Positions 29,212 to 64,000 of a stretch of DNA of 64,000 nt are shown here, piece by piece. The DNA is from Styela clava (Eukaryota; Chordata; Ascidiacea; Stolidobranchia; Styelidae), in the NCBI RefSeq assembly GCF_964204865.1, contig NC_135253.1:22294001-22358000 (forward strand), read 5' to 3'. Below the pieces are notes generated by a model that worked only from the letters and a program-made list of their open reading frames with translations, was not told the DNA's origin and did not search any database. The stretch's first letter is position 1. Every line of letters begins with the position of its first letter. A program made the translations under genes and the position numbers.

Positions 29212-30201
29212 TCAACTGGATGTAGAGGCAGTGGAAAGGTAAAGGGAGCGCATGAATTTTTTGTATTTGAATTTGAAAGTGTCATAACTACAGTTACGTA
29301 AGTTTAAGGGAATATTATTCCAAGTTACCACACCTTTATATTTCAAGGAGTTTTGGGATTTGCTTAGAGAAAATCTGGGTATAAATAAATTAGACCTTGT
29401 CGAAGAGCGTGTGTTATGATCATGCACTTTACTGAGCGAAAAAAAATAATCGTCGAAAGCAGCGGGCAAATGGTTGCTATGAAACTGATGCATGACCTTG
29501 GAAATCTCTAGTTGATAGATATCGGCTAATTTTAACACCCTGGTCTTATAGTATAGGGTGTTTAAGTTAGATCGAATGGGTGCTCTAGAGAGAATTCTAA
29601 CTGCTCTATTTTGTAAAACTTCCAAACTGTGCAACGCTGATTGGGTGGCGGAGCCCCATGCAGTTATAGCATACTGTATATGAGACTGGAAAAGTGCGAA
29701 GTATATGGTTCGGAGAGTTGAGTCCTGGACGTAATGTCTGAGCTTACCCAGGATTCCAACTGCTCTTGACAGTCTCTTATGCAGTTCAGTAGTATGAGTG
29801 TTCCAATTTAGTTTGTCGTCAATAAGAAGCCCAAGATATTTGAAAGAGTGGACAATTTCGAGTGTGACACCCCTGATTTTAATTGAAAAGTTTTCATGTC
29901 TGGTTCGAGTTTTAGGACCAAACAACATAACTTTAGATTTTTTAACATTCACAGTAAGTTTATTGCATACCATCCAATTATACACTTTGTTAATTTCAGT
30001 GTTCACCTCGGCTTGCAGTGAGATTAGATTCTTTGCACTGTCGAGCAGACAGGCATCATCGGCGAAGAGTTTGCTCAAGAAATTTGAACAATTTGAAAGA
30101 TCGTTTATGAAGATTAAAAAATTCAAAGGTCCTAATACGCTACCTTGTGGAATTCCGTAATGGATGGGTAATAACGAAGACCTGTGAGAATCTAACTCCA
30201 C
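29212..30201 (-). pseudogene. LINE reverse transcriptase, C-terminal part
   Basis: Open frame of 329 codons with YGIPQGSVLGPLNFLIFIND, the catalytic FADD box (residues 46-49), NVKKSKVMLFG, FKYLGLLIDDKLNW and the thumb/C-terminal LINE region (WGSATQSALHSLEVLQNRAV). It is out of frame with the upstream part at 30192-31085. The frame itself has no internal stop, so the element is fairly young. Confidence 0.8.
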
Positions 30202-31085
30202 ATATTGATAACGTCCGGACAGAGAATAGCATGGTCGACAGTATCAAAAGCTTTTTTCAGATCTAAGAAAGTACAACAGACGAATTCCCCTTTGTCAAGT
30301 TTATCATAAATAAATGAAGTTAAGTCCAAGATAGCGTGGCTGGTCGAGTGATTGCTTTGGAATCCAAATTGACATTTATTGATCAAGTTAAATTTTTTAC
30401 AAAAATTCAGCATTCGACTATGAATTAATTTTTCTAAAATGATGCCTAGGGAGGGTAAAATGGAAATTGGTCGGTAATTTGACGGGTCATTTCTTTTGCC
30501 ATTTTTAAATATTGGTTTCACTCTGGCAATCTTTAACGATGAAGGAAAAATACCTAATTTAAAAGATGAGTTGAAAAAATGACACAGAGTTGGCGATATG
30601 ATATCAGCGACTTGTTTTAGAAAGTAAGTTGGAATACCATCTGGGCCAACTGCTTTTCCATTTTTCAGGTTCAATATGGTTTGAAGAATCTCTGTATGTG
30701 TCGTTGGCTCCAGGAAAAGGGTGTTTTGCAGCGGAACACCCAAAAAATCGGTAGAAGGGTTAGAGCTACCAGGGATGTTATTCGCAAGTTTCTTTCCTAC
30801 CGTTGAGAAGAATTCATTAAATTCACTGGCCATCATGATGGGGTCTGTCACTGTGGTACCATTTTCGAGTTTCAATTCTGAGATGGATGTATCATCTCTG
30901 GACTTAGTCTTAATGATCTCGTTAATAGTTTTCCAAGTTTGTTTGATATCTCCCCGGTTATTCTCGAGGGCATAGCGATAATGCAGTTGTTTCGATTTTC
31001 TCTGCAAGTGCATTAAGATATTTTTATATTTTTTGAAGTGGAGACGCTGAAGTGTATTACCTTTCAAAAAATTTTTTTTGAACAT
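30192..31085 (-). pseudogene. LINE reverse transcriptase, N-terminal part
   Basis: Open frame with the fingers region of a non-LTR reverse transcriptase: LKNGKAVGPDGIP, KPIFKNGKRNDPSNYRPISI, FLDLKKAFDTVDHAIL. The reading extends without a stop to about 31141. It ends in an out-of-frame tail just after the motif FDTVDH. Comparison with the next frame indicates that about 30 residues of the palm were deleted together with a frame change near 30225. Probably inactive. Confidence 0.75.
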
Positions 31086-40562: not shown

Positions 40563-40874
40563 AAATTGAACATGATGAAGAACACAAAATGCCACTCTAT
40601 ATATAGGTAGATTTGGAAAAGTAAATAAAAAACAATGTGCGTATAGAAAACATTCAAAATGATTCAATCATATAATTTTTCCATAATAGAATTAGTAACT
40701 GAAGCTAAAATTTTAGTAAGTTTGTTAAAATATGGTTCTTTAATATCTTATCGGTCAGTTTCCTGAATTTCATGATTTTACTGCAGAAATGATGAAATTA
40801 CAAAACAGTATTTTTGAACAAAAACACCCATTTTGAATAGTATTAATTGTTGTATGAAAAAAACTTGAAAAAAT

Positions 40875-41033
40875 ATGGACCAATCTTGAGCAGACGTGAT
40901 GGGAAGGGCGATCATTTGACAACTGAGTCATGAACTGCATCCGTAATAAGGTTGAATAAGGATTCTGCATGTTAATTTTTGCGATGCGATGTTAATTTTT
41001 GTGGAGATGATTTTGATGACGAGCATGTATTTT
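40875..41033. repeat. Diverged copy of part of the BEL-flanking segment
   Basis: GACCAATCTTGAGCAGACGTGATGGG ... GAGATGATTTTGATGACGAGCATGTATTTT closely matches 45477-45630 and 55260-55413. A ~12-base difference lies around GTTAATTTTTGCGATGCG. The segment that flanks the BEL element is therefore partly a dispersed repeat. Confidence 0.65.
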
Positions 41034-43234: not shown

Positions 43235-43834
43235 CTAAAGTTGGAATAGCTCATCTGTGTCTTGATGAAATGAATTAGAGTTTGAAAAAGTTGTTTTCGT
43301 GGCCGATTCAAACGAGGGTTTTCTCCTCATGAATTTGGCACAAGGTGCGTGAGTATTTTTACGAATTTCAATATCGCTTTTCTCAGAAAGCATCGTTGAT
43401 GTCACTTTCATTGTTGAGTTTATTTGTTTATCAAGTTTTTGAAGAAAATCATGGACACTGTCTTCTGCTACTGTTGGTTTTTGCGGCGTAGAATTTGACT
43501 CATTTTCCGCAGAATTTTTACCCTTTTTCAAAAGAATTTTTGGACTTTCTGACTTTGCATTATTTACTGCTGAATTTTGTGATGATTCACCATTTTTCTG
43601 TCCTGGTATTAATAAATATTGTCGAGATTGTATCGAATCCGTATAATGAAGTTTATTTATCCTTCTTAATTCTTCGGTCGAAGTTCCAAATCTTAGTGCG
43701 ATTCCTGGCAATGTTTCGCCTGGATCGACATAATGTTGGAAGAGAGGTTCCGCTGGTTTTCTGCCTGAGCGCACAAATGATCCGTATGAATTCTGTATCA
43801 CTCCTGTAGAAACGATTGACTGCCACTCAGTCAT
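43235..43834 (-). CDS. LysM and peptidoglycan-binding domain protein (LYSMD1/2-type)
   Basis: Single open exon of 199 codons. After NSYGSFVRSG, a LysM domain spans residues ~34-77 (VDPGETLPGIALRFGTSTEELRRINKL ... YLLIP) with the usual G-D/E-T-L and I-N pattern. A polar, Ser/Lys-rich middle follows. The conserved LYSMD1/2 features come next: DFLQKLDKQI (~128-137) and the acidic/hydrophobic end DTDELFQL. Vertebrate LYSMD1/2 are intracellular proteins of poorly known function; no signal peptide or membrane segment is visible here. The lack of introns could reflect a compact gene or a retrocopy. I cannot separate LYSMD1 from LYSMD2. Confidence 0.85.
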   Translation of the reverse strand: MTEWQSIVSTGVIQNSYGSFVRSGRKPAEPLFQHYVDPGETLPGIALRFGTSTEELRRINKLHYTDSIQSRQYLLIPGQKNGESSQNSAVNNAKSESPKILLKKGKNSAENESNSTPQKPTVAEDSVHDFLQKLDKQINSTMKVTSTMLSEKSDIEIRKNTHAPCAKFMRRKPSFESATKTTFSNSNSFHQDTDELFQL

Positions 43835-44275: not shown

Positions 44276-45128
44276 ACTTTTGTGGCTATTCTGATATTTC
44301 ACTATCTAGACTAGATCTTATCATCCTGCTGTCAGACTGTAGTACTAATTGACCAGACTGCCATGTCTGTATATACCATTTTCTGATTTTAGCAGTTGTT
44401 ATTGAGCAAAAAGGTTAGCTTAGCACCAATAACAAATTAACCAAATCCTGAATTCAGCAAGTTCTGATCATCTGGTTTGCTGGCTCTCCAGAATTCTATA
44501 ACACACATACAGACATACGTTACCGACGTACTGTAACTAATACTAAAAGTAGATCAGACTGATAAGGACGTTAATACAGAGAACTAGGTTCCGCTAAAGC
44601 GAAACAGCTGAATCAGTAAACAAATGCCGAAGATATACCGTACTGAGATAAGGAACAATAGCAAGTCAGCTGTCCCGTGACGTCATTAGAGTAAAATTCT
44701 CCAACATCACGTGCTCACTACGCTCGAGTGAAAACACGAAACGAAATTTGGAGTCACGGGAGTAAAAACGTTCAGGGCAAAGAACTCGATAATCTTGGAT
44801 CAGATTCATTATTTTTGATGTGTTAAAACATGTCAAAAAACAATTTTTTTGCAGTAATAAAGGCGTCGAGGAAAACGTCGAAAGATTTAACGCAGTGAAA
44901 AGAACAAAAAAAAAACATGCATTTTTTGCCCACGTCAAAATCGATAGTTTGGCGGGCCGGGTTGTGAACCAGCGATGAGCTGGAAAAATTGTAACAACCG
45001 GAACGCCCTAATTCACAAAAATGTAAAATATTCCCAACACGACGCGGACGTTTACAGAACTGCAAATACATTATATAAAATATGTTTGTGTAAAATTATA
45101 AGAGTATCCATAGCAATTCAATACAAAT
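44276..45128. other. Intergenic, no gene recognised
   Basis: Open frames at 44666-44938 and 44823-45071 (minus) show no family features. A CRE-like TGACGTCA lies near 44679. The stretch ends where the duplicated BEL-flanking segment begins. Confidence 0.4.
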
Positions 45129-46126
45129 CTTATTATTAAAAAGGTATAGAATGAATTTTCACGGGGTCAAAGGACTGGGAAACGTTTATTACACGTTACT
45201 GCTGTACTAAATTATTTGCGTGATGTGACGTAAAAAGACACACGATTTATAATGTAACAAAACATAAATTAATAACTAAGTTAACCAGAGAAACTGTACC
45301 ACAATTTTATTTCAACAACAGGAACGCAAATGCAGCAAAATGTCCAACAACCGGAACGCCGTTCCGGCCACAGCTAACCACTGGTTCTGACCCGCGGGAC
45401 GCCATTTGCAACCCCTGTGTTAGGGGCTAGAAGAGTGGATCGGGGGTTTGGTTTTGCTGCATGTCATTCAAATATGAACCAATCTTGAGAAGACGTGATG
45501 GGAAGGGCGATCATTTGACAACTGAGTCATGAACTGCATCCGTAATAAGGTTGAATAAGGATTCTGCATTGATATACAATGCGATGTTAATTTTTGTGGA
45601 GATGATTTTGATGACGAGCATGTATTTTGAGGCAGCGACAACTTCAGTGCGTGCAGCAGACCGGGAGCGCACCATGGCCCAAGTGCAGTTTTCGCCACTT
45701 TGTGGCGTCTGAACGTGCCGCAAACCATAGCCTCTACGGTCAGACCATGCCGGCTGACATTTTAGCTGCCACAAAACAATGGCATGAGGCGTGGGTACCA
45801 CGGCAGCAAATTAGAAACAATGACGGCTAAAATTGTACTGCCACAAACCAAGGCATGTAGTAAGATCACTTTAAATACCCCAATACAGGGGTCGGCAACC
45901 TTTTGTCGCTCGCGGGCCAAAATTAGAGGTTGCAAGTCATTGGTGGGGCGCACATATTTTTAGAAAGTTGAAAACCCCAACGGATGATACGTTTTGTAAT
46001 AAATATCAAGCAGTTTTACATCTCTCGAATAGAATATAGATTTATTTTTTTCTCATTGCCTTGCATCTCAAAAAATTACATTTAAATATTTTCGGCGCCA
46101 TTTTTGCACCTTTTGCACTTAGCATC
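45129..46126. repeat. Left copy of ~1 kb segment flanking the BEL element
   Basis: CTTATTATTAAAAAGGTATA through GCACTTAGCATC. The same sequence lies at 54914-55912 in the same orientation, with roughly a dozen substitutions and one indel by eye (about 1%). The left copy ends exactly at the first base of the 5' LTR. Its last 235 bp (45892-46126) are the left half of a GGGGTCGGCAACC hAT-like element whose right half occurs only beyond the right copy. Confidence 0.85.
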
Positions 46127-47203
46127 TGAAACCGCCTCGCATTTGTTTTCGTTTATTTCACACTTGACTGATTTTGTGATTTGCGTATTCTGCGATTGCA
46201 ACATAACCTCACACATTGATGTTGCCATGTTTCTAGTATCGTTTTGTAGTTATTTCTAGGTTTGTATTGGGCATATCTAATGCTGCTCAAGTAGGGTTTA
46301 GTACTAGTGTAATTTATGATATTTTTCTGATGACAACCTACCCCGATTTGTAGACTGTTAACAAATTAGAACATAGAATTATGCTAATTTGTCCTGTGTT
46401 GCTAGGCCAGCTCTCTTTGTGTTGTTGCTTATTTCTGGCAACGCTCGTTCTTTCGCTCGCTGCTTTCTGGGCGGGAATGTCGGCAGTGATTATCTGCTCT
46501 CCAGTTTTGTTAGATTTTTAGTTGTTTAAGGTCTCAGGAACCGGGTTTTTAAGTCATATATTTAGTAAAAGTTACCTTTGAATCTTTCCCAGCTCTATTC
46601 GCGTTTAGATGTTCGTTATTCTCAGTAGGCTAGGAAAACAGTTGCAAGTAGTTATTTCATGATATTTTGTGTGTTTTTTTGTTAGATCTGATCAAATATA
46701 GAGCTAGTTAAAATAATAGCTTCCAGTCAAATAATTGGTTGTTCTTTGAGTTGAAGGCTACATCGTCAAGTAAGTCTTTGATTTATCGTATTTTATGCTT
46801 TATTTAGTGATATGAAACTGCAATTTTAAGGTAAACAATTGTGCTGTATTTTTGGCTTTTTCAATTAATTTGTGATTCTAAATTGATAAATATTGTGCTT
46901 TTTAAGTGCTAATTAGTTAGATGTTTGGTAAGTTTTATCGTGTGACATATTTTGAGACTGTTTTCCATTTCTGTTTAGAAAACCGTACAAATTGACAACT
47001 GTATACTGATTCGTACTTTCAACTGTAATTGAATTTCAATCGTACGTACACTGCATTTTAAACGTACCTTTTTCGTGACAACAAGAAATTTCAAAAGGCG
47101 ATTTGTACGCGTATTTTTATTGTGGAGTCTCGAAACGATTCAGAGAGCAACCGTCCGTTAACGCGTGTTGGCGCTAGATAGCGACTCCGATTTGGCGCCT
47201 ACA
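46127..47203 (+). repeat. 5' LTR of the BEL element
   Basis: TG...CA boundaries, direct repeat of 53832-54913. It is followed directly by TAAGTTTTTTGACG. I did not identify a TATA box with confidence. Confidence 0.85.
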
Positions 47204-47285
47204 TAAGTTTTTTGACGTTTGCACAAAAGCTGAAAAGAAAATTGCACATTAATTCTGAAGTTGCCTGGTTGAAGTTAAATTAAAA

Positions 47286-48515
47286 ATGGCAACGGCTGAT
47301 GCTCACTTAAATGTCGAGGACAATGAAGATGATTCAACAACAAATGACGGTTCTGCAAAATCAGACGTTCATGAAACAACAATAATTGCAATGTCAGTTG
47401 AAACACAACCTAAATCAAGTCTTGCATTGGCAAGTGAAAATGTTGTGAGTGATCATTCTAGTGGTGTGAGTAAAGACTTGTTCCTAAGAATACCTGATGT
47501 GGATTCAGTTTCTCACCTAAGTTCGCGAAAGAACATTAATAAAGAGAAGTCTGTAGCATCTTGTGTTGCTGAAGAAATGTCAACAAACACACATGTAATG
47601 ACCACAAGATCAAAAGTGAAACAAAAGAAATCAACTGTTTTAACTCGGGATTGTTTGTCAAGAAATTCAAAAAGAAGAAGCTTGAAAACGTTTCGTAGTG
47701 CAAGTTATCGATCAACATCTGTTGTCCAGTCACAAAAATCAGCTCTTAGTGAGTCGCAAATAGAAAACATCTATGAAGCACGAAAAATAAGTCAGCAAAG
47801 AAAAACTGAGCTAGAGAAACAACAGCTCGGTAACCGGTTGCAACAAGAAAAAGAAATTTGGGAAGAAAATAACCAAATTGAAGACTTGACGCTGGAAAAG
47901 GAGTGGCAAGAACTCCTGCAACAACAACAAGTTGAGGAGGAAGAAATAAGAAAAGAAAAGCAACGTCAAGAGGAAGAAATTAGAATTGAAAACCAACGTA
48001 AGCGAGAAGCATTTATGCGTCGTCGCCAGGAAATACAACAAAAAAGAAAGATCGAAAACGTTACATTCGATCGACGTAAACAAAGAACCCTGCAAGAAAT
48101 CGAAGACAGAAGTCGACGAGAACTGCTGGGATTGGACATGGACTTTAATGAAACTTTAGCAGAAAGTGGGATAATTGTTAATAAATCCCCATCTGCTGTT
48201 ATTGCTAATGATACTACTAACCAACAATCGACACAAAATTCTGTAACTACACCATCAGAACCTGAACCCGATGTACAAAATGCACCTGTAATGTTACCTG
48301 TAACAACTGCACAATTTTCACAACCGCAGATCACACAAGTCACCAGAACGAATATGTTGAGTACCATGAGTAGGAGGAGGACCATCGCCGGGGAAAATGG
48401 TGAGTCGGTTATTCCTGCCTCTGAAATTGAAATTTGTAATCCACAAAATGTTAGTGTGACTATGGGTGGTGATGTTGCAGTTGAGAATGTGTCCCAGAAA
48501 TGTGTTGAATGTTAG
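47286..48515 (+). CDS. BEL element ORF1, gag N-terminal region with coiled coil
   Basis: 409 codons. An acidic, Ser/Thr-rich N-terminus is followed by a long Glu/Gln/Arg-rich heptad region (~155-285) predicted to be coiled coil, then a Thr/Pro-rich tail. It stops at 48513-48515, inside the start of the next frame, which lies +1 relative to it. In this family gag usually runs straight into pol. The stop is therefore either a mutation or a frameshift site; the sequence alone does not decide. No conserved domain beyond the coiled coil. Confidence 0.6.
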   Translation: MATADAHLNVEDNEDDSTTNDGSAKSDVHETTIIAMSVETQPKSSLALASENVVSDHSSGVSKDLFLRIPDVDSVSHLSSRKNINKEKSVASCVAEEMSTNTHVMTTRSKVKQKKSTVLTRDCLSRNSKRRSLKTFRSASYRSTSVVQSQKSALSESQIENIYEARKISQQRKTELEKQQLGNRLQQEKEIWEENNQIEDLTLEKEWQELLQQQQVEEEEIRKEKQRQEEEIRIENQRKREAFMRRRQEIQQKRKIENVTFDRRKQRTLQEIEDRSRRELLGLDMDFNETLAESGIIVNKSPSAVIANDTTNQQSTQNSVTTPSEPEPDVQNAPVMLPVTTAQFSQPQITQVTRTNMLSTMSRRRTIAGENGESVIPASEIEICNPQNVSVTMGGDVAVENVSQKCVEC

Positions 48516-51500
48516 TTCAGGAGTGGCTACTACCTGTTCTTGTATGCTGAATGATAGTACCGTAGCTCCCCGGGTGAGTGTGAGTGCGTGTACTATGAAC
48601 GATGTGACTCGAATACCTGAAATGAGTGTGAGTTTACCATTCACCTCACCTATTTCAATTGCTAGTCAGATTCCAATCTATACTGCTCCTAAAGCAAGTT
48701 CTGTACCTGTAGTGACTTTGTCAAATAGTGTCCCTTTGACAGGTGTGACCCAAATGCCTGTTATGCCTAATCAAGTTTTGTCATACCCTCAAATAATTTA
48801 TGTACCCCAACCTCAGTTTGGTTTACCACCTTCGGAACCCCCTACTTTTTCTGGAGATGCTGCGGAGTACAGATATTTTTTGGATATATTTGACACTGTA
48901 ATTGGAAGTAGAGTTCAAAGCCCTAAAGAAAAAATGGTGTATTTGCTCAAATATACAAAGGGTCCTGCTCATGCACTGGTCAAAGGTTGCCAGCATCGTG
49001 GATCTGAATGTTATAATGAAGCAATTCAGTTGCTTGATGAAACATATGGACGAAAATATCAAATAGGGGAAGCTTGTATAAATTCAGTTTCCTGTGGTCC
49101 TAATTTAAAATTGGCTGATAAAGATGCCCTAACAATGTTCGCCGCAGAGCTGATGTCCTGTATGAATACATTGATAGGAATTGAATATAATAATGTATCT
49201 ATTATGACAATTGATAAGATGGCCATGAGAATGCCTCATTCTTGGAGGGCAGGGTGGCTGTCTGTAGTTGATGATGTTTTAAATGAAAAGAAGGTGAATT
49301 TAACAGTTGAACATTTGGCGAATTATGTTCGAAAACGAACTCGTGAAAACACGAATCTGCCTTCTAATGATTCAAACTCACCTCCAAAGCAATCGAACCC
49401 TGTGAAAGGTCTGAAACCCTATAGATCAACATTTGCTACATCAGTTGTTGATAGGCCTGTACGAAAATGTGTTAAATGCAATAAAGATCATTTTTTGAAT
49501 CAGTGTGTTAAATTTCGTGAATTGAGCTATGAAGATAAAATTGAGTTCGTCAGGAACCGAAAGCTTTGTTTTTCATGCCTCGAACCTGGTCACTGGAGCA
49601 AAGACTGTAAGCGAACAAAGCCTTGTAAGGTTGAAGGATGCAAGAGAAGACATACAACGGTTCTTCATCCTCCAGACAAAATCCAAATTAATCATTCTGG
49701 GACAAAAGGTGATGAATCTCCTGTTTTGAAAAATTTTGGCTCTCAAACACCTGAAACTGAAACCAAATTCAATGCTTTTGTTAATACATCTAAAAATGAA
49801 AAGGTTTTGCTCAATGTGATTCCTGTTAAAGTACGTGTTAATGGTGACAAAAATGCTATTGTGACGAACGCATTTTTTGATAATGGTTCCACTTGCTCAT
49901 TCATAAGTGAGTCTCTTATGCACAAGTTAAATGTTGATGGTCTCAAGATAAATTTGAATGTTCGTACAATAAATAATGAAACTGAAAGTAAACAAAGTAT
50001 GATTGTGAAAGGTCTTGAAATTTCGGACTTTGATGAATCTGAATATGTGTCATTGACGCCATTATTTTCAAACGATAAAATTGGTGTTGAGCAATCTGAT
50101 ATTCCCTCTCAAAAGGACGTGGATCAATTTATTGAATTTAAGAATGTTGTTATACCAAATATTAAATCTGAAGTGGGTCTTTTGATTGGCAAGGATAATC
50201 CTAAATTGCACAAACCATTGGAAGTTGCCTATGGCCCTCATGACTATTTTGCATCTAAGACTGTTGCTGGATGGATGATTAGTTGTCCACCTAAGAAGAA
50301 TGACAATCAAGGTAATCCATGTAATTATTTTGTGAAAAATGAAGTGCATCCATTGTGTCAAATGTGCACGGATGTCATTGATTCGGCTAATAATGAAAAG
50401 GAAGAAATCTCCCCTCGACAACAAATGTTCCTTGATAGGGTGAGCGAATCTATTAAGTTGAAAGATGACGGGCACTATGAAATTGATTTGCCATTTATAA
50501 ATCCAAATTCGAAATTACCTTCAAATTATTTGCAAGTGAAACAGCGAACCGAATCGCTCAAGCGTCGATTTATTAGGGATCCAAATTTTTATTCTGAATA
50601 TAAAGATTTTGTGGAAAATATGTTAACTATGGGCTATGCAGAAGAAGTTTCTGATTCTACTGAAAGTGAAGGTCAAATTTGGTATATTAATCATCATGGC
50701 GTTTATCACCCTGAAAAGAAGAAAATTCGTGTAGTATTTGACTGCTCATCTAAATTTCAAGGAATCTGCCTTAACGACGTTCTGTTACAGGGGCCGGACC
50801 TGGCCAATAACTTGGTTGGTGTTCTGTCAAGGTTTCGCAAAAATGTGGTTGCTGTACAGGGAGATATTCGCTCAATGTTTTTACAAGTGAAGGTACCCGA
50901 AAAACACAGAAATTATCTTAGATTTTTCTGGTGGGAAGACAGCGACATAAATAAACCCATGAAAGAATTTCGCATGACAGCTTATCCATTTGGAACGGTT
51001 TGCAGCCCAAGTTGCTGTAATTATGCATTGAAACAATCTGCCGAATACAATAAACATGATTTTGATATGAGTGTTATAAATGCAATTAACGATTCATTCT
51101 ATGTGGATGATTTTTTCGATTCAAGACCAAATGCCGAAAGTGCCGTTTCTCTCGTGAAAAATATTTCTGCTGTCTGCGCAAAAGGCGGATTTGAAGTTTT
51201 AAAATGGATCAGTAATGATCGCAATGTTATTGCCGAAATTCCTGAAGATATGAGATCAAAGAATTTGAAAAATTTAAATTTAGCTGTTGACGCTTTACCT
51301 CTTGAACATGCTCTAGGTATGATTTGGAGCGTTGATGAAGACATCTTGTGTTTCTCTGTTAATCCTAAAGAGAGACCTCGTAATAGACGTGGCATGTTAA
51401 GTGTCGTGAATTCTATTTTTGACCCAATGGGCCTGGTACAACCAGTGCTTCAGCCTGTGAAGGTTCTAATGCAAATGCTTTGCAGACAGAAGTTCAGTTG

Positions 51501-52590
51501 GGATGACCCAATACCACCGGGAGTTGAACAAGAATGGCTAAAATGGCTTTCTGAGTTGCCTAAACTGAAGGAATTTAATGTACCAAGATGTTTTGTACCC
51601 GTGGATTACGGTGAAGTTGTAGAAACTCAAATTCATCATTTTTCGGATGCGTCTGAAAAATCATATGGCGCTGTGTCTTATCTCAGGATGTTGAATTCAT
51701 CTGGACAAATACACTGTGTGTTACTTTGTGGAAAATCTAGGCTAGTACCATTGAAAGGCTCGACAATACCTAGACTCGAACTGTGTGCAGCAACTATTTC
51801 TGCGCGCAATGATAAATTTTTCAGAAATGAGCTTAAAATTGAAATTTCTGCATCTTATTTTTGGACAGATAGTACGACGGTGTTACGCTATTTGGCTAAT
51901 GAGGATAAAGTATTTAAAACTTTTGTTGCTAACAGAGTAAATCTAATCAAGGAAGTTTCTGAAATTAACCAATGGTATTATGTGCCATCTAAATTGAATC
52001 CGGCTGATGTTGCCTCCAGAGGTATGTCAGTGGATGCCTTCCTGAATTATCCGGAATGGAAATCTGGTCCAAGTTTTTTATGGAAATGTCATGATGAGTG
52101 GCCTGAACAACCTGATTTCTTACATTCTGTGTCTGATGGAAATTTGGAAATTAAGAAAGAATTGCCTGAAAAATGTTTTGCTGTTGTGAAAGATCAACCA
52201 TGTGTTCTTGATGATGTCGTTGCTAAATATTCAAATTGGCATCACTTGAAGAAAATAATTGCTTGGATGTTACGTTACATAAACAAATTAAAGTCAATTG
52301 TTGGATCAAACTGCAATTTGAAATCTGGACCTGTTGAATCTTTAACTGTAGAAGAAATGATTCTGGCTGAGGTGGAAATTATAAAGCATGAACAAAGAAA
52401 ATACTTTTTAAAAGAAATTGATGTTTTGTTCAAAGGAAAACAAATTCCAAAATCAAGCTCTTTATGTAATTTACAACCATTCTTGGAAAACGGACTACTT
52501 CGTGTAGGAGGTAGGACAGAGCAGCAAATGTTGAGTTTAATGCAAAGCATCCAATTATTATCCCAAAAGAAAGTAAAATTGCTTCTTTAA
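48466..52590 (+). CDS. BEL element gag-pol: CCHC, protease, reverse transcriptase, RNase H
   Basis: 1374 codons, open. A gag core (~120-290, starting PPTFSGDAAEYRYFLDIF) is followed by zinc knuckles (CVKCNKDHFLNQC ~335; CFSCLEPGHWSKDC ~367). A Cys/His-rich CKVEGC...H follows. The aspartic protease centre reads FFDNGST (~468), with DNG where DTG/DSG is common. Reverse transcriptase motifs are VVFDCSSKFQG (~754), QGDIRSMFLQV (~795) and the catalytic YVDDFF (~878). RNase H motifs are FSDASEKSYGAV (~1056) and WTDSTTVLRYL (~1132), with LNPADVASRG. The last ~15 codons are out of frame relative to family expectation, because a break near 52525-52535 shifts integrase into another frame. Confidence 0.85.
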   Translation: MVMLQLRMCPRNVLNVSSGVATTCSCMLNDSTVAPRVSVSACTMNDVTRIPEMSVSLPFTSPISIASQIPIYTAPKASSVPVVTLSNSVPLTGVTQMPVMPNQVLSYPQIIYVPQPQFGLPPSEPPTFSGDAAEYRYFLDIFDTVIGSRVQSPKEKMVYLLKYTKGPAHALVKGCQHRGSECYNEAIQLLDETYGRKYQIGEACINSVSCGPNLKLADKDALTMFAAELMSCMNTLIGIEYNNVSIMTIDKMAMRMPHSWRAGWLSVVDDVLNEKKVNLTVEHLANYVRKRTRENTNLPSNDSNSPPKQSNPVKGLKPYRSTFATSVVDRPVRKCVKCNKDHFLNQCVKFRELSYEDKIEFVRNRKLCFSCLEPGHWSKDCKRTKPCKVEGCKRRHTTVLHPPDKIQINHSGTKGDESPVLKNFGSQTPETETKFNAFVNTSKNEKVLLNVIPVKVRVNGDKNAIVTNAFFDNGSTCSFISESLMHKLNVDGLKINLNVRTINNETESKQSMIVKGLEISDFDESEYVSLTPLFSNDKIGVEQSDIPSQKDVDQFIEFKNVVIPNIKSEVGLLIGKDNPKLHKPLEVAYGPHDYFASKTVAGWMISCPPKKNDNQGNPCNYFVKNEVHPLCQMCTDVIDSANNEKEEISPRQQMFLDRVSESIKLKDDGHYEIDLPFINPNSKLPSNYLQVKQRTESLKRRFIRDPNFYSEYKDFVENMLTMGYAEEVSDSTESEGQIWYINHHGVYHPEKKKIRVVFDCSSKFQGICLNDVLLQGPDLANNLVGVLSRFRKNVVAVQGDIRSMFLQVKVPEKHRNYLRFFWWEDSDINKPMKEFRMTAYPFGTVCSPSCCNYALKQSAEYNKHDFDMSVINAINDSFYVDDFFDSRPNAESAVSLVKNISAVCAKGGFEVLKWISNDRNVIAEIPEDMRSKNLKNLNLAVDALPLEHALGMIWSVDEDILCFSVNPKERPRNRRGMLSVVNSIFDPMGLVQPVLQPVKVLMQMLCRQKFSWDDPIPPGVEQEWLKWLSELPKLKEFNVPRCFVPVDYGEVVETQIHHFSDASEKSYGAVSYLRMLNSSGQIHCVLLCGKSRLVPLKGSTIPRLELCAATISARNDKFFRNELKIEISASYFWTDSTTVLRYLANEDKVFKTFVANRVNLIKEVSEINQWYYVPSKLNPADVASRGMSVDAFLNYPEWKSGPSFLWKCHDEWPEQPDFLHSVSDGNLEIKKELPEKCFAVVKDQPCVLDDVVAKYSNWHHLKKIIAWMLRYINKLKSIVGSNCNLKSGPVESLTVEEMILAEVEIIKHEQRKYFLKEIDVLFKGKQIPKSSSLCNLQPFLENGLLRVGGRTEQQMLSLMQSIQLLSQKKVKLLL

Positions 52591-52637
52591 TAATAGATTA
52601 TGTCCACAGAACAACTGGTCATAACGGTCGTGAATAT

Positions 52638-53699
52638 GTGTTAGCTGAAATAAATCAAAAGTATTGGATCGTAAAAGGTAATGCTTTGGTGCGAAGTGTT
52701 TTGAGAGGATGTGTTCCTTGCAGGAAGAGACAACGTCCTCCTGAATCTCAATTAATGGCGGACTTACCTGAGAATCGCTTGATACCGGATAAACCTCCTT
52801 TCACATATGTTGCAGTGGATTGTTTTGGTCCATTCTTGATCAAGCAAGGAAGGAGCGAGGTTAAACGTTATGGTGTGCTTTTTACTTGTTTAGTGTCGCG
52901 CGCTGTACATGTGGAAATAGCAAACAGTCTGGACACTAGTGCTTTCATTATGTCTCTTAGAAGATTCATAGCAAGGAGAGGTCAAGTTATTGAGATGCGA
53001 TCTGATAATGGCACTAACTTCGTCTCTGGTGAACGAGAACTCAGAGATGCGATTAAATCTTGGAACAAAAACCAAATTCATGATTATTTGTTACAGAAAA
53101 ACATCAAATGGATATTTCAATCGCCTGCTTCATCTCATCATGGTGGTGTGTTTGAGAGACAGATTAGAACTATAAGGAAAATCTTTAATGCTGTTTGCTG
53201 TGAACAAGTGTTGACAGATGAGAGTTTAAGAACTCTTATGTGCGAATGCGAAAATATTGTGAATGGACGACCGATAACTACAGTATCGAACGACCCTAAA
53301 GATTTAACTCCATTAAGTCCAAATAATTTATTACTGATGAAAGAGGAACCAATGCTTCCTCCAGGTGTGTTTGACACCAAGGACATGTATGCTCGAAAGC
53401 GTTGGAAGCAAGTCCAATATCTTGCGGATGTTTTCTGGAAACGTTGGAGAAAGGAATTCCTTCCGCTTCTTCAATGTCGACAAAAATGGAACAAAGTGCA
53501 ACGAGATCTTCAAAAGGATGACATTGTACTTGTTGTGAATGAGAATCAACCACGAAACACTTGGTTGCTGGGACGAGTCATTGAAACTTACCAGGATAGC
53601 AAGGGTAGGGTTCGTTCCGTGGGTGTTCAAACCAAATATTCCATATTCCAACGCCCTGTGACTAAACTTGTACTTCTGCGTGAGTGTGATGAAACATAA
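52638..53699 (+). CDS. BEL element integrase region
   Basis: 353 codons from the first Met of the frame. The integrase homology starts upstream of this Met, so the frame break near 52530 separates it from pol. Visible: the second half of the HHCC zinc-binding site (CVPCRKRQ ~25). The catalytic triad follows: VAVDCFGPF, MRSDNGTNF, and HHGGVFERQIRTIRK carrying the Glu. The C-terminal DUF5641-like domain contains DVFWKRWRKEFLPLLQ and GRVIETYQDSKGRVRSV. All catalytic acidic residues are present. Confidence 0.85.
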   Translation: MLAEINQKYWIVKGNALVRSVLRGCVPCRKRQRPPESQLMADLPENRLIPDKPPFTYVAVDCFGPFLIKQGRSEVKRYGVLFTCLVSRAVHVEIANSLDTSAFIMSLRRFIARRGQVIEMRSDNGTNFVSGERELRDAIKSWNKNQIHDYLLQKNIKWIFQSPASSHHGGVFERQIRTIRKIFNAVCCEQVLTDESLRTLMCECENIVNGRPITTVSNDPKDLTPLSPNNLLLMKEEPMLPPGVFDTKDMYARKRWKQVQYLADVFWKRWRKEFLPLLQCRQKWNKVQRDLQKDDIVLVVNENQPRNTWLLGRVIETYQDSKGRVRSVGVQTKYSIFQRPVTKLVLLRECDET

Positions 53700-53831
53700 T
53701 TTGGTAACTTTTCAATTTCGTTTTAAAGAATTTCTTTCTGGCATGTTTGTTGAGTGTGTTTGATGTGTTTTGAGTGTGTGGAAATCTTGTAAATTTGTGG
53801 ATGCAAATTTTAAATTTCCAAGGGGCCGGGA

Positions 53832-54913
53832 TGAAACCGCCTCGCATTTGTTTTCGTTTATTTCACACTTGACTGATTTTGTGATTTGCGTATTCTGCGA
53901 TTGCAACATAATTTCACACATTGATGTTGCCATGTTTCTAGTATTGTTTTGTAGTTATTTCTAGGTTTGTATTGGGCATATCTAATGCTGCTCAAGTAGG
54001 GTTTAGTACTAGTGTAATTTATGATATTTTTCTGATGACAACCTACCCCGATTTACAGACTATTAACAAATTAGAACATAGAATTATGCTAATTTTTCCT
54101 GTGTTGCTAGGCCAGCTCTCTTTGTGTTGTTGCTTATTTCTGGCAACGCTCGTTCTTTCGCTCGCTGCTTTCTGGGCGGGAATGTTGGCAGTGATTGTCT
54201 GCTCTCCAGTTTTGTTAGATTTTTAGTTGTTTGAGGTCTCAGGAACCGGGTTTTTAAGTCATATCATATATTTAGTAAAAGTTACCTTTGAATCTTTCCC
54301 AGCTCTATTCGCGTTTAGATGTTCGTTATTCTCAGTAGGCTAGGAAAACAGTTGCAAGTAGTTATTTCATGATATTTTGTGTGTTTATTTGTTAGATCTG
54401 ATCAAATATAGAGCTAGTTGAAATAATAGCTTCCAGTCAAATAATTGGTTGTTCTTTGAGTTGAAGGCTACATCGTCAAGTAAGTCTTTGATTTATCGTA
54501 TTTTATGTTTTATTTAGTGATATGAAACTGCAATTTTAAGGTAAACAATTGTGCTGTATTTTTGGCTTTTTCGATTAATTTGTGATTCTAAATTGATAAA
54601 TATTGTGTTTTTTAAGTGCTAATTAGTTAGATGTTTGGTAAGTTTTATTGTGTGACATATTTTGAGACTGTTTTTTATTTCTGTTTAGAAAACCGTACAA
54701 ATTGACAACTGTATACTGATTCGTACTTTCAACTGTAATTGAATTTCAATCGTACGTACACTGCATTTTAAACGTACCTTTTTCGTGACAACAAGAAATT
54801 TCAAAAGGCGATTTGTACGCGTATTTTTATTGTGGAGTCTCGAAACGATTCAGAGAGCAACCGTCCGTTAACGCGTGTTGGCGCTAGATAGCGACTCCGA
54901 TTTGGCGCCTACA
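53832..54913 (+). repeat. 3' LTR of the BEL element
   Basis: Direct repeat of 46127-47203, with a CATAT duplication near 54263. It is followed directly by the right copy of the ~1 kb flanking segment. Confidence 0.85.
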
Positions 54914-55912
54914 CTTATTATTAAAAAGGTATAAAAAGAATTTCCACGGGGTCAAAGGACTGGGAAACGTTTATTACACGTTACTGCTGTACTAAATTAT
55001 TTGCGTGATGTGACGTAAAAAGACACACGATTTATAATGTAACAAAACATAAATTAATAACTAAGTTAATCAGAGAAACTGTACCACAATTTTATTTCAA
55101 CAACAGAAACGCAAATGCAGCAAAATGTCCAACAACCGGAACGCCGTTCCGGCCACAGCTAACCACTGGTTCTGACCCGCGGGACGCCATTTGCAACCCC
55201 TGTGTTAGGGGCTAGAAGAGTGGATCGGGGGTTTGGTTTTGCTGCATGTCATTCAAATATGAACCAATCTTGAGAAGACGTGATGGGAAGGGCGATCATT
55301 TGACAACTGAGTCATGAACTGCATCCGTAATAAGGTTGAATAAGGATTCTGCATTGATATAGAATGCGATGTTAATTTTTGTGGAGATGATTTTGATGAC
55401 GAGCATGTATTTTGAGGCAGCGACAACTTCAGTGCGTGCAGCAGACCGGGAGCGCACCATGGCCCAAGTACAGTTTTCGCCACTTTGTGGCGTCTGAACC
55501 TGCCGCAAACCATGGCCTCTACGGTCAGACCATGCCGGCTGACATTTTAGCTGCCACAAAACAATGGCATGAGGCGTGGGTACCACGGCAGCAAATTAGA
55601 AACAATGACGGCTAAAATTGTACTGCCACAAACCAAGGCATGTAGTAAGATCTCTTTAAATACCCCAATACAGGGGTCGGCAACCTTTTGTCGCTCGCGG
55701 GCCAAAATTAGAGGTTGCAAGTCATTGGTGGGGCGCACATATTTTTAGAAAGTTGAAAAACCCCAACGGATGATATGTTTTGTAATAAATATCAAGCAGT
55801 TTTACATCTCTCGAATAGAATATAGATTTATTTTTTTCTCATTGCCTTGCATCTCAAAAAATTACATTTAAATATTTTCGGCGCCATTTTTGCACCTTTT
55901 GCACTTAGCATC
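54914..55912. repeat. Right copy of ~1 kb segment flanking the BEL element
   Basis: Begins CTTATTATTAAAAAGGTATA at the first base after the 3' LTR and matches 45129-46126 to its last base (GCACTTAGCATC). The sequence then continues into AATTTTTCTGCG, the natural continuation of the hAT-like element it contains. Confidence 0.85.
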
Positions 55913-56152
55913 AATTTTTCTGCGTTTTGTTGCTTTTTGTCTAGTTATAACTAAATTATAGGCTCATTAAACGAGTAATTGTGAATTATATACTTGTTAG
56001 GTTATAATATAATTTAGTCTACACGTGTCTCAAAATAAATTGTGTTATGTAAAGAATATAATCGTCAAAGCAGCTGTTTTGTTACTATATTTCAACGAAG
56101 CGTCGCAGGTCAGATTATAGTACTCCGCGGGCCGTAGGTTGCCGACCCCTGC
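55678..56152. mobile_element. Complete hAT-like element (CAGGGGTCGGCAACC ends)
   Basis: CAGGGGTCGGCAACC and GGTTGCCGACCCCTG are a perfect 15-bp inverted pair. Interior related to 18840-19305 (TTGTCGCTCGCGGGCC; TAGTTATAACTAAATTATAGG). Its left half is also present at 45892-46126. No clear target duplication (CCCCAATA left, CCTTAATG right). Confidence 0.7.
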
Positions 56153-63699: not shown

Positions 63700-64000
63700 G
63701 GGAATGCAAAATAAATGTAACAAAACGCATTTTTTTGTGATATAACTTTGTATTTTCGGAAACGGGTTGCCGTGAAAGGTAAAATTTGATCTAAATTGAT
63801 CGCAAAAATGTTTTATTTTAAATGTAACAAAACACATTTTGCGATATAACCTTGTATTTTCGAAAACGGGTGTCCTGAAAAGTAAAATATGATCTAAATT
63901 AATCGCAAAAATGTTTTATTTTAATTGTAACAAAACACATTTTGCGATATAACCTTGTATTTTCGAAAACTGGTGTCCTGTAAAGTAAAATATGATCTAA
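63700..64000. repeat. ~105-bp tandem repeat running off the right edge
   Basis: GTAACAAAAC(G/A)CATTTT starts at 63717, 63824 and 63927. Each is followed by GATATAAC(T/C)TTGTATTTTCG(G/A)AAAC, then GTAAAAT(T/A)TGATCTAAATT and TCGCAAAAATGTTTTATTTTA. Spacings are about 107 and 103 bp. Later copies are more alike, and the array continues past the window. Confidence 0.8.

Follow-up and report, generated by a model that had tools for sequence, protein, structure and literature searches.

Within a stretch of 64,000 nucleotides from the ascidian Styela clava (contig NC_135253.1, positions 22,294,001 to 22,358,000, hereafter the window), an element that, judged from its sequence, is a BEL/Pao long terminal repeat (LTR) retrotransposon stands between two direct copies of the same host segment of about 1 kb. 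This arrangement raises the question of how a retrotransposon might come to be bounded by a host duplication of such length. For the reasons given below, we lean slightly towards an inter-element crossover between two BEL copies lying about 1 kb apart on homologous chromosomes.

Structure of the locus

The boundaries of the locus and the divergence of its parts were taken from self-BLAST and global alignment. On the plus strand, the left copy of the host segment (dup1, 45129-46126, 998 bp) is followed by the 5' LTR (46127-47203, 1077 bp), the BEL internal region (47204-53831), which carries the purine-rich stretch AAGGGGCCGGGA at its right end, the 3' LTR (53832-54913, 1082 bp) and the right copy of the segment (dup2, 54914-55912, 999 bp). 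Dup1 and dup2 are 98.8% identical and both stop exactly at the LTR ends (TGAAAC... and ...CCTACA). An earlier description made from the letters only (the sequence-only reading) had given the two flanks as one sequence, in one orientation, ending exactly at the LTR boundaries, and its coordinates were right. It had also seen no short target duplication, as did we: the host target bases on the plus strand are GCATC at the left joint (46122-46126) and CTTAT at the right joint (54914-54918). At neither joint do the terminal bases of the LTR match the host sequence that was displaced, and both LTR ends are complete, without truncation.

In direct orientation, dup1 and dup2 differ by 11 substitutions (7 transitions) and one 1-bp indel, a divergence of 1.1%, and the 5' and 3' LTRs differ by 18 substitutions (16 transitions) and one 5-bp indel, or 1.7%. 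These values agree with the roughly 1% and 2% that had been estimated by eye, and the two rates are not significantly different (Fisher p=0.35).

Target sites in the rest of the family

When the genome was searched with the 5' LTR, 30 candidates were returned and all were scored, giving 28 near-full LTRs and 5 fragments. The 28 LTRs comprise the two of the window, nine other pairs, six solo LTRs at five loci and two 3' LTRs on the unplaced contig C314, which was excluded from the pair and target-site counts because no whole 5' LTR was found there; the solo LTR locus on C16 is duplicated and was counted once. A perfect 5-bp target duplication was found at all nine other paired copies and at all five solo-LTR loci, the junctions being read by eye and, for C9, C14b and the C16 solo LTR, the LTR end being read a few bases beyond the BLAST match. 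The window copy is thus the single exception among 15 loci. When the two 1.5-kb flanks of each pair were compared by BLAST, no repeat between them was found in any of the nine other pairs, and the 1-kb repeat was seen in the window copy only.

Some family members are irregular in other ways. The C14 solo LTR (L048, 0.99 Mb) has a 128-bp piece of the LTR start about 50 bp upstream, and its 5-bp duplication is still present. The C16 solo LTR is duplicated together with its flanks (L044 and L046, at 2.29 and 2.21 Mb), the copies lying 83 kb apart with 95.6% identity, and the stretch neighbouring it is also multi-copy. Pieces of the family on the unplaced contigs C314 (L033, L034, L049) and C208 (L050) adjoin a tandem array with a unit of about 192 bp, and the partial LTR on these contigs turns into its own inverted copy.

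LTR lineages

A single template serves for both LTRs of a retrotransposon, and the two are the same when it inserts, so that two LTR lineages within one element point to two insertions. In each of the nine other pairs the partner LTRs were reciprocal nearest neighbours, separated by 0, 0, 0, 0, 3, 10, 12, 12 and 13 substitutions. The LTRs of the window were not mutual nearest neighbours: they are 18 substitutions apart, the 5' LTR being 11 from C14a and the 3' LTR 15 from C2b. Three substitutions and the 5-bp insertion are confined, within the set, to the 3' LTR and C2b; at these sites the 5' LTR has the common family states and lacks the insertion. In the tree, the 3' LTR was grouped with C2b with a support of 99/95. 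The two window LTRs therefore look, at the sequence level, like the ends of two insertions belonging to different lineages.

The kind of difference between them points the same way. Both states of a substitution occurred elsewhere in the family for 12 of the 18 window substitutions, whereas the five other pairs whose LTRs are not identical gave 10 of 50 (C13 0/13, C16 3/10, C9 3/12, C6 4/12, C14b 0/3; Fisher one-sided p=0.0005), and when the window substitutions were placed on random sites the mean was 2.0 and a count of 12 was reached in none of 20,000 draws. As these 12 are variants of the family, the LTR divergence of 1.7% does not give an insertion age, and the possible similarity in age of flanks and LTRs, put forward in the sequence-only reading, cannot be argued from these divergences. 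Private bases number 3 in each of the two window LTRs and 2-6 in sets whose LTRs are identical (columns of the alignment in which fewer than 26 of the 28 letters were present were dropped). On this count the LTRs of both parents look young.

Inter-element recombination was reportedly recognised by Hughes and Coffin in 2005 from LTR pairs that do not cluster together. In the available parts of two other reports, non-clustering pairs are treated as a mark of such recombination and as voiding LTR dating (PMC2672092, PMC545599). The logic applied here is the same, but the putative parents of the window element would have lain about 1 kb apart at one locus, and for this reason host DNA would have been tandemly duplicated. 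Two marks of an inter-element recombinant were present in the window, namely mismatched target sites and LTRs of different lineages, the latter with the caveat that an approximately unbiased (AU) test gave p=0.112 for the two LTRs as sisters.

The same observations bear on a true very long staggered target-site duplication made by one integration, which the sequence-only reading had listed among three explanations and which fits poorly. The available text of PMC5488345 describes host duplications of 250 bp (confirmed) and 450 bp (putative) at HERV-K(HML-2) and discusses 'pseudo-TSDs' (target-site duplications) made by recombination; these are alike in having long direct host repeats around an LTR element, whereas the window has a 998-bp repeat and LTRs of two lineages. 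A long stagger would require LTRs that were identical at insertion, against the 12 of 18 differences that are family variants (subject to the AU result, p=0.112), and 5 bp were duplicated at all 14 other family loci with both joints read. We regard this origin as exceedingly improbable.

Outer edges and the pre-insertion site

It could be asked whether the outer ends of the duplication are themselves recent joints. The left outer edge (45128/45129) lies within an old interspersed repeat of about 415 bp (44970-45384) that runs over it unbroken, and all 10 of the genomic copies of this repeat that were fetched align over the edge, L004 for no more than 22 bp, beyond which it carries an insertion. 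The right outer edge (55912/55913) is spanned by a whole repeat (55671-56151) that we take to be hAT-like from its terminal motif. All 10 fetched copies of it also align over the edge, L015 and L020 by just 21 bp before an internal gap. The left half of the hAT-like repeat is found again at 45886-46126, where it is interrupted by the 5' LTR, the terminal motif standing at both 45886 and 55671. Dup2 accordingly starts within the left repeat and dup1 ends within the right one. Since the repeats span the outer edges, the left flank and dup1, as well as dup2 and the right flank, are natively adjacent, and the original order was left flank, a single segment, right flank.

Among the best 40 of 3086 candidates in the genome, dup1 and dup2 were the only full-length copies of the segment, and neither the segment nor either of its outer flanks had a full-length match away from the window locus (best 40 candidates scored). 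The possibility raised in the sequence-only reading that the segment is an internal part of a larger composite element was therefore set aside, as there was no third full-length copy among the scored candidates and none of the nine other pairs had a flank repeat. An older tandem repeat with the BEL inserted where its units meet was also rejected, as a target duplication would remain, and so were two insertions in cis followed by sister exchange, for which extra BELs or solo LTRs would be expected at the outer edges, and these are native.

A third copy, partial and matching the middle of the segment, is present in direct orientation 4.6 kb upstream (40871-41033, 163 bp, about 94% identity, the first 100 bp about 98%). 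The single reverse-strand frame of this copy that was tried contains a stop codon.

A proposed crossover between two insertions

In the proposed sequence of events, which elaborates the first of the three explanations in the sequence-only reading, two different members of one young BEL/Pao family would have entered the locus on different homologues, about 1 kb from each other and facing the same way. Allele A would have received its copy at the right end of the segment (GCATC) and allele B a different copy at the left end (CTTAT). After a crossover inside the mispaired BELs, the recombinant would have the flank, segment and 5' LTR of allele A on its left and the 3' LTR, segment and flank of allele B on its right. 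The result would be segment-BEL-segment, that is, a tandem duplication of host DNA around a chimeric BEL with LTRs from two lineages, and because one target site would come from each parent, no matching short duplication would be left. The structure, the native outer edges, the absent target duplication and the LTRs that do not pair together are observed; from these we infer that the join is a crossover made in a living cell, between homologues, rather than a product of the assembler.

The roo element of Drosophila is itself a member of the BEL/Pao superfamily. Unequal exchange between roo copies was described at the white locus (available text of PMC7003089, citing Goldberg et al. 1983), and there too a crossover between mispaired LTR retrotransposon copies duplicates or deletes the intervening DNA. 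The event at white was recovered from a cross, whereas that in the window is deduced from LTR lineages and target sites, with a 1-kb segment found duplicated in a single assembly. A narrow look at the open-access literature turned up no BEL/Pao case of the same geometry.

An assembly join, also named in the sequence-only reading, predicts a sequence identical to that left by a crossover, including the LTR lineages and the absent target duplication. In this case one haplotype would carry a BEL at GCATC and the other a BEL at CTTAT, the assembler would have switched inside the BEL, and the duplication would exist on no chromosome. The flank divergence of 1.1% could be heterozygosity, and only one version of the locus was found in the assembly among the best 40 candidates scored. 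However, there is no N within the 64,000-nt window, and the other duplicated places examined are 94-98% alike or multi-copy and are not obvious haplotype copies, although this is a small sample. The join would, moreover, need the same rare pair of insertions within one individual. We consider it a possible but rather doubtful origin. The likely cause is ordinary recombination or its assembly look-alike, and the kind of event is one already known.

A number of observations weigh against a crossover between homologues. A pair of insertions on the same strand and within 1 kb of each other is improbable a priori, with about 7e-4 expected (two haplotypes, 16 loci each), and a parental allele with a single insertion site was not seen in the assembly. 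The 5' LTR has no well-supported relative, being grouped weakly with C8 in the tree (84/74) and lying nearest to C14a by distance, and a sister relationship between the window LTRs is still acceptable under the AU test, with a log-likelihood 16.5 lower when they were forced together. Three of the control pairs, C16, C9 and C6, also exceeded the random-site null (their values were reached in 125, 224 and 47 of 5000 draws), so that shared-state differences also arise otherwise, through hot spots or conversion. The internal region has 33 private bases compared with 14-26 in copies with identical LTRs, which argues against a very young element, although this is fewer than in C16 (53) and C6 (51); C9 was poorly covered and was dropped from this count. 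Lastly, no clear switch between parents was seen in the internal region when 300-bp tiles were compared with ten relatives, and no breakpoint could be placed there.

Substitutions in the right copy

The differences between dup1 and dup2 provide a further point of the same kind. Six of the 11 substitutions could be polarised with copies of the old repeats, and dup2 had the rarer state in all six (two-sided sign test about 0.03; at column 193 the old copies split 7 to 2). A seventh substitution points the same way when compared with the weakly aligned 163-bp local copy, and the single indel goes in the opposite direction. Three of the differences lie at 54934-54944, no more than 31 bp from the joint with the 3' LTR, and dup2 has the rarer state at each; the chance of three changes within 31 bp of the joint is 0.4%, and that of three within 11 columns anywhere is 4%. 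The cluster is a post hoc observation and one multi-base mutation could be its source. Allelic divergence does not predict this asymmetry and cluster; both would be expected if the right copy had been made by error-prone synthesis, as in the model put forward for aberrant proviruses (PMC5041404).

Such synthesis is part of a one-ended aberrant integration, in which integrase would have joined the 5' LTR at GCATC, the free 3' LTR end would have primed repair synthesis 1 kb upstream, and homologous recombination would have connected dup2 with the right flank, the LTRs diverging later, for example by gene conversion. For aberrant one-ended integration of human immunodeficiency virus (HIV) and ASLV, host duplications of hundreds or thousands of bp beside the provirus are described in the available part of PMC5041404. 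The six dup2-derived substitutions, three of them crowded at the 3' LTR joint, would be in keeping with this. The aberrant retroviral end usually has microhomology and is often truncated, and neither was seen in the window, although neither is constant in the precedent. HIV proviruses with structurally unequal LTRs, in the accessible text of PMC9278108, commonly have large 3' deletions, a type not seen at the window BEL. One-ended integration also needs a separate cause for the two LTR lineages; it appears unlikely, though the asymmetry of dup2 lends it some weight.

It might also be envisaged that each of two different BEL cDNAs (complementary DNAs) was integrated by a single end, the two sites lying 1 kb from each other on homologues or sister chromatids, and that recombination between the cDNAs healed the broken chromosome. 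This concerted event, if true, would yield a chimeric element whose LTRs are of two lineages, beside a right flank that is newly synthesised and carries errors, and would account for the mixed LTRs, the absent target duplication and the derived bases of dup2. Some long 'target duplications' would then be by-products of paired half-integrations. We hold it to be very unlikely. The crossover between two BEL insertions remains the reading that we favour, in view of the LTR lineages and the target sites.

Element identity and neighbouring features

The element has three open frames on the plus strand. The first (47286-48515, 409 aa) had no Pfam match. The second (48466-52590, 1374 aa) matched DUF1759 and Peptidase_A17 (the latter with E 1.5e-48) above the cut-off and CCHC, Asp_protease_2 and RVT_1 slightly below it, and the third (52638-53699, 353 aa) matched DUF5641 above the cut-off and the integrase core (rve) below it. 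The Pao-type coding region, the TG...CA LTRs and the purine-rich tract, which contains two C, are all features of BEL/Pao elements. The short fixed target duplication is present at the 14 other family loci and absent at the window copy, which was therefore treated as a rearranged member.

Elsewhere in the window, two adjacent open frames on the minus strand (29212-31085), each with part of a reverse transcriptase domain, belong to a second retroelement that is probably broken. A 199-aa open frame with a LysM domain on the minus strand (43235-43834) is perhaps part of a host gene beside the duplication, and a 103-bp tandem repeat (63712-64000) reaches the right end of the window.

Implications

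If real, the locus would be a clean natural record of a crossover between retrotransposon insertions about 1 kb apart that gave rise to a tandem duplication of host DNA. It would also be an example of an LTR divergence that misleads when read as an insertion clock, and would suggest that recombination may lie behind some very long 'target-site duplications'. Three checks, namely LTR lineage, target sites and native outer edges, could be used to count such events across genomes.

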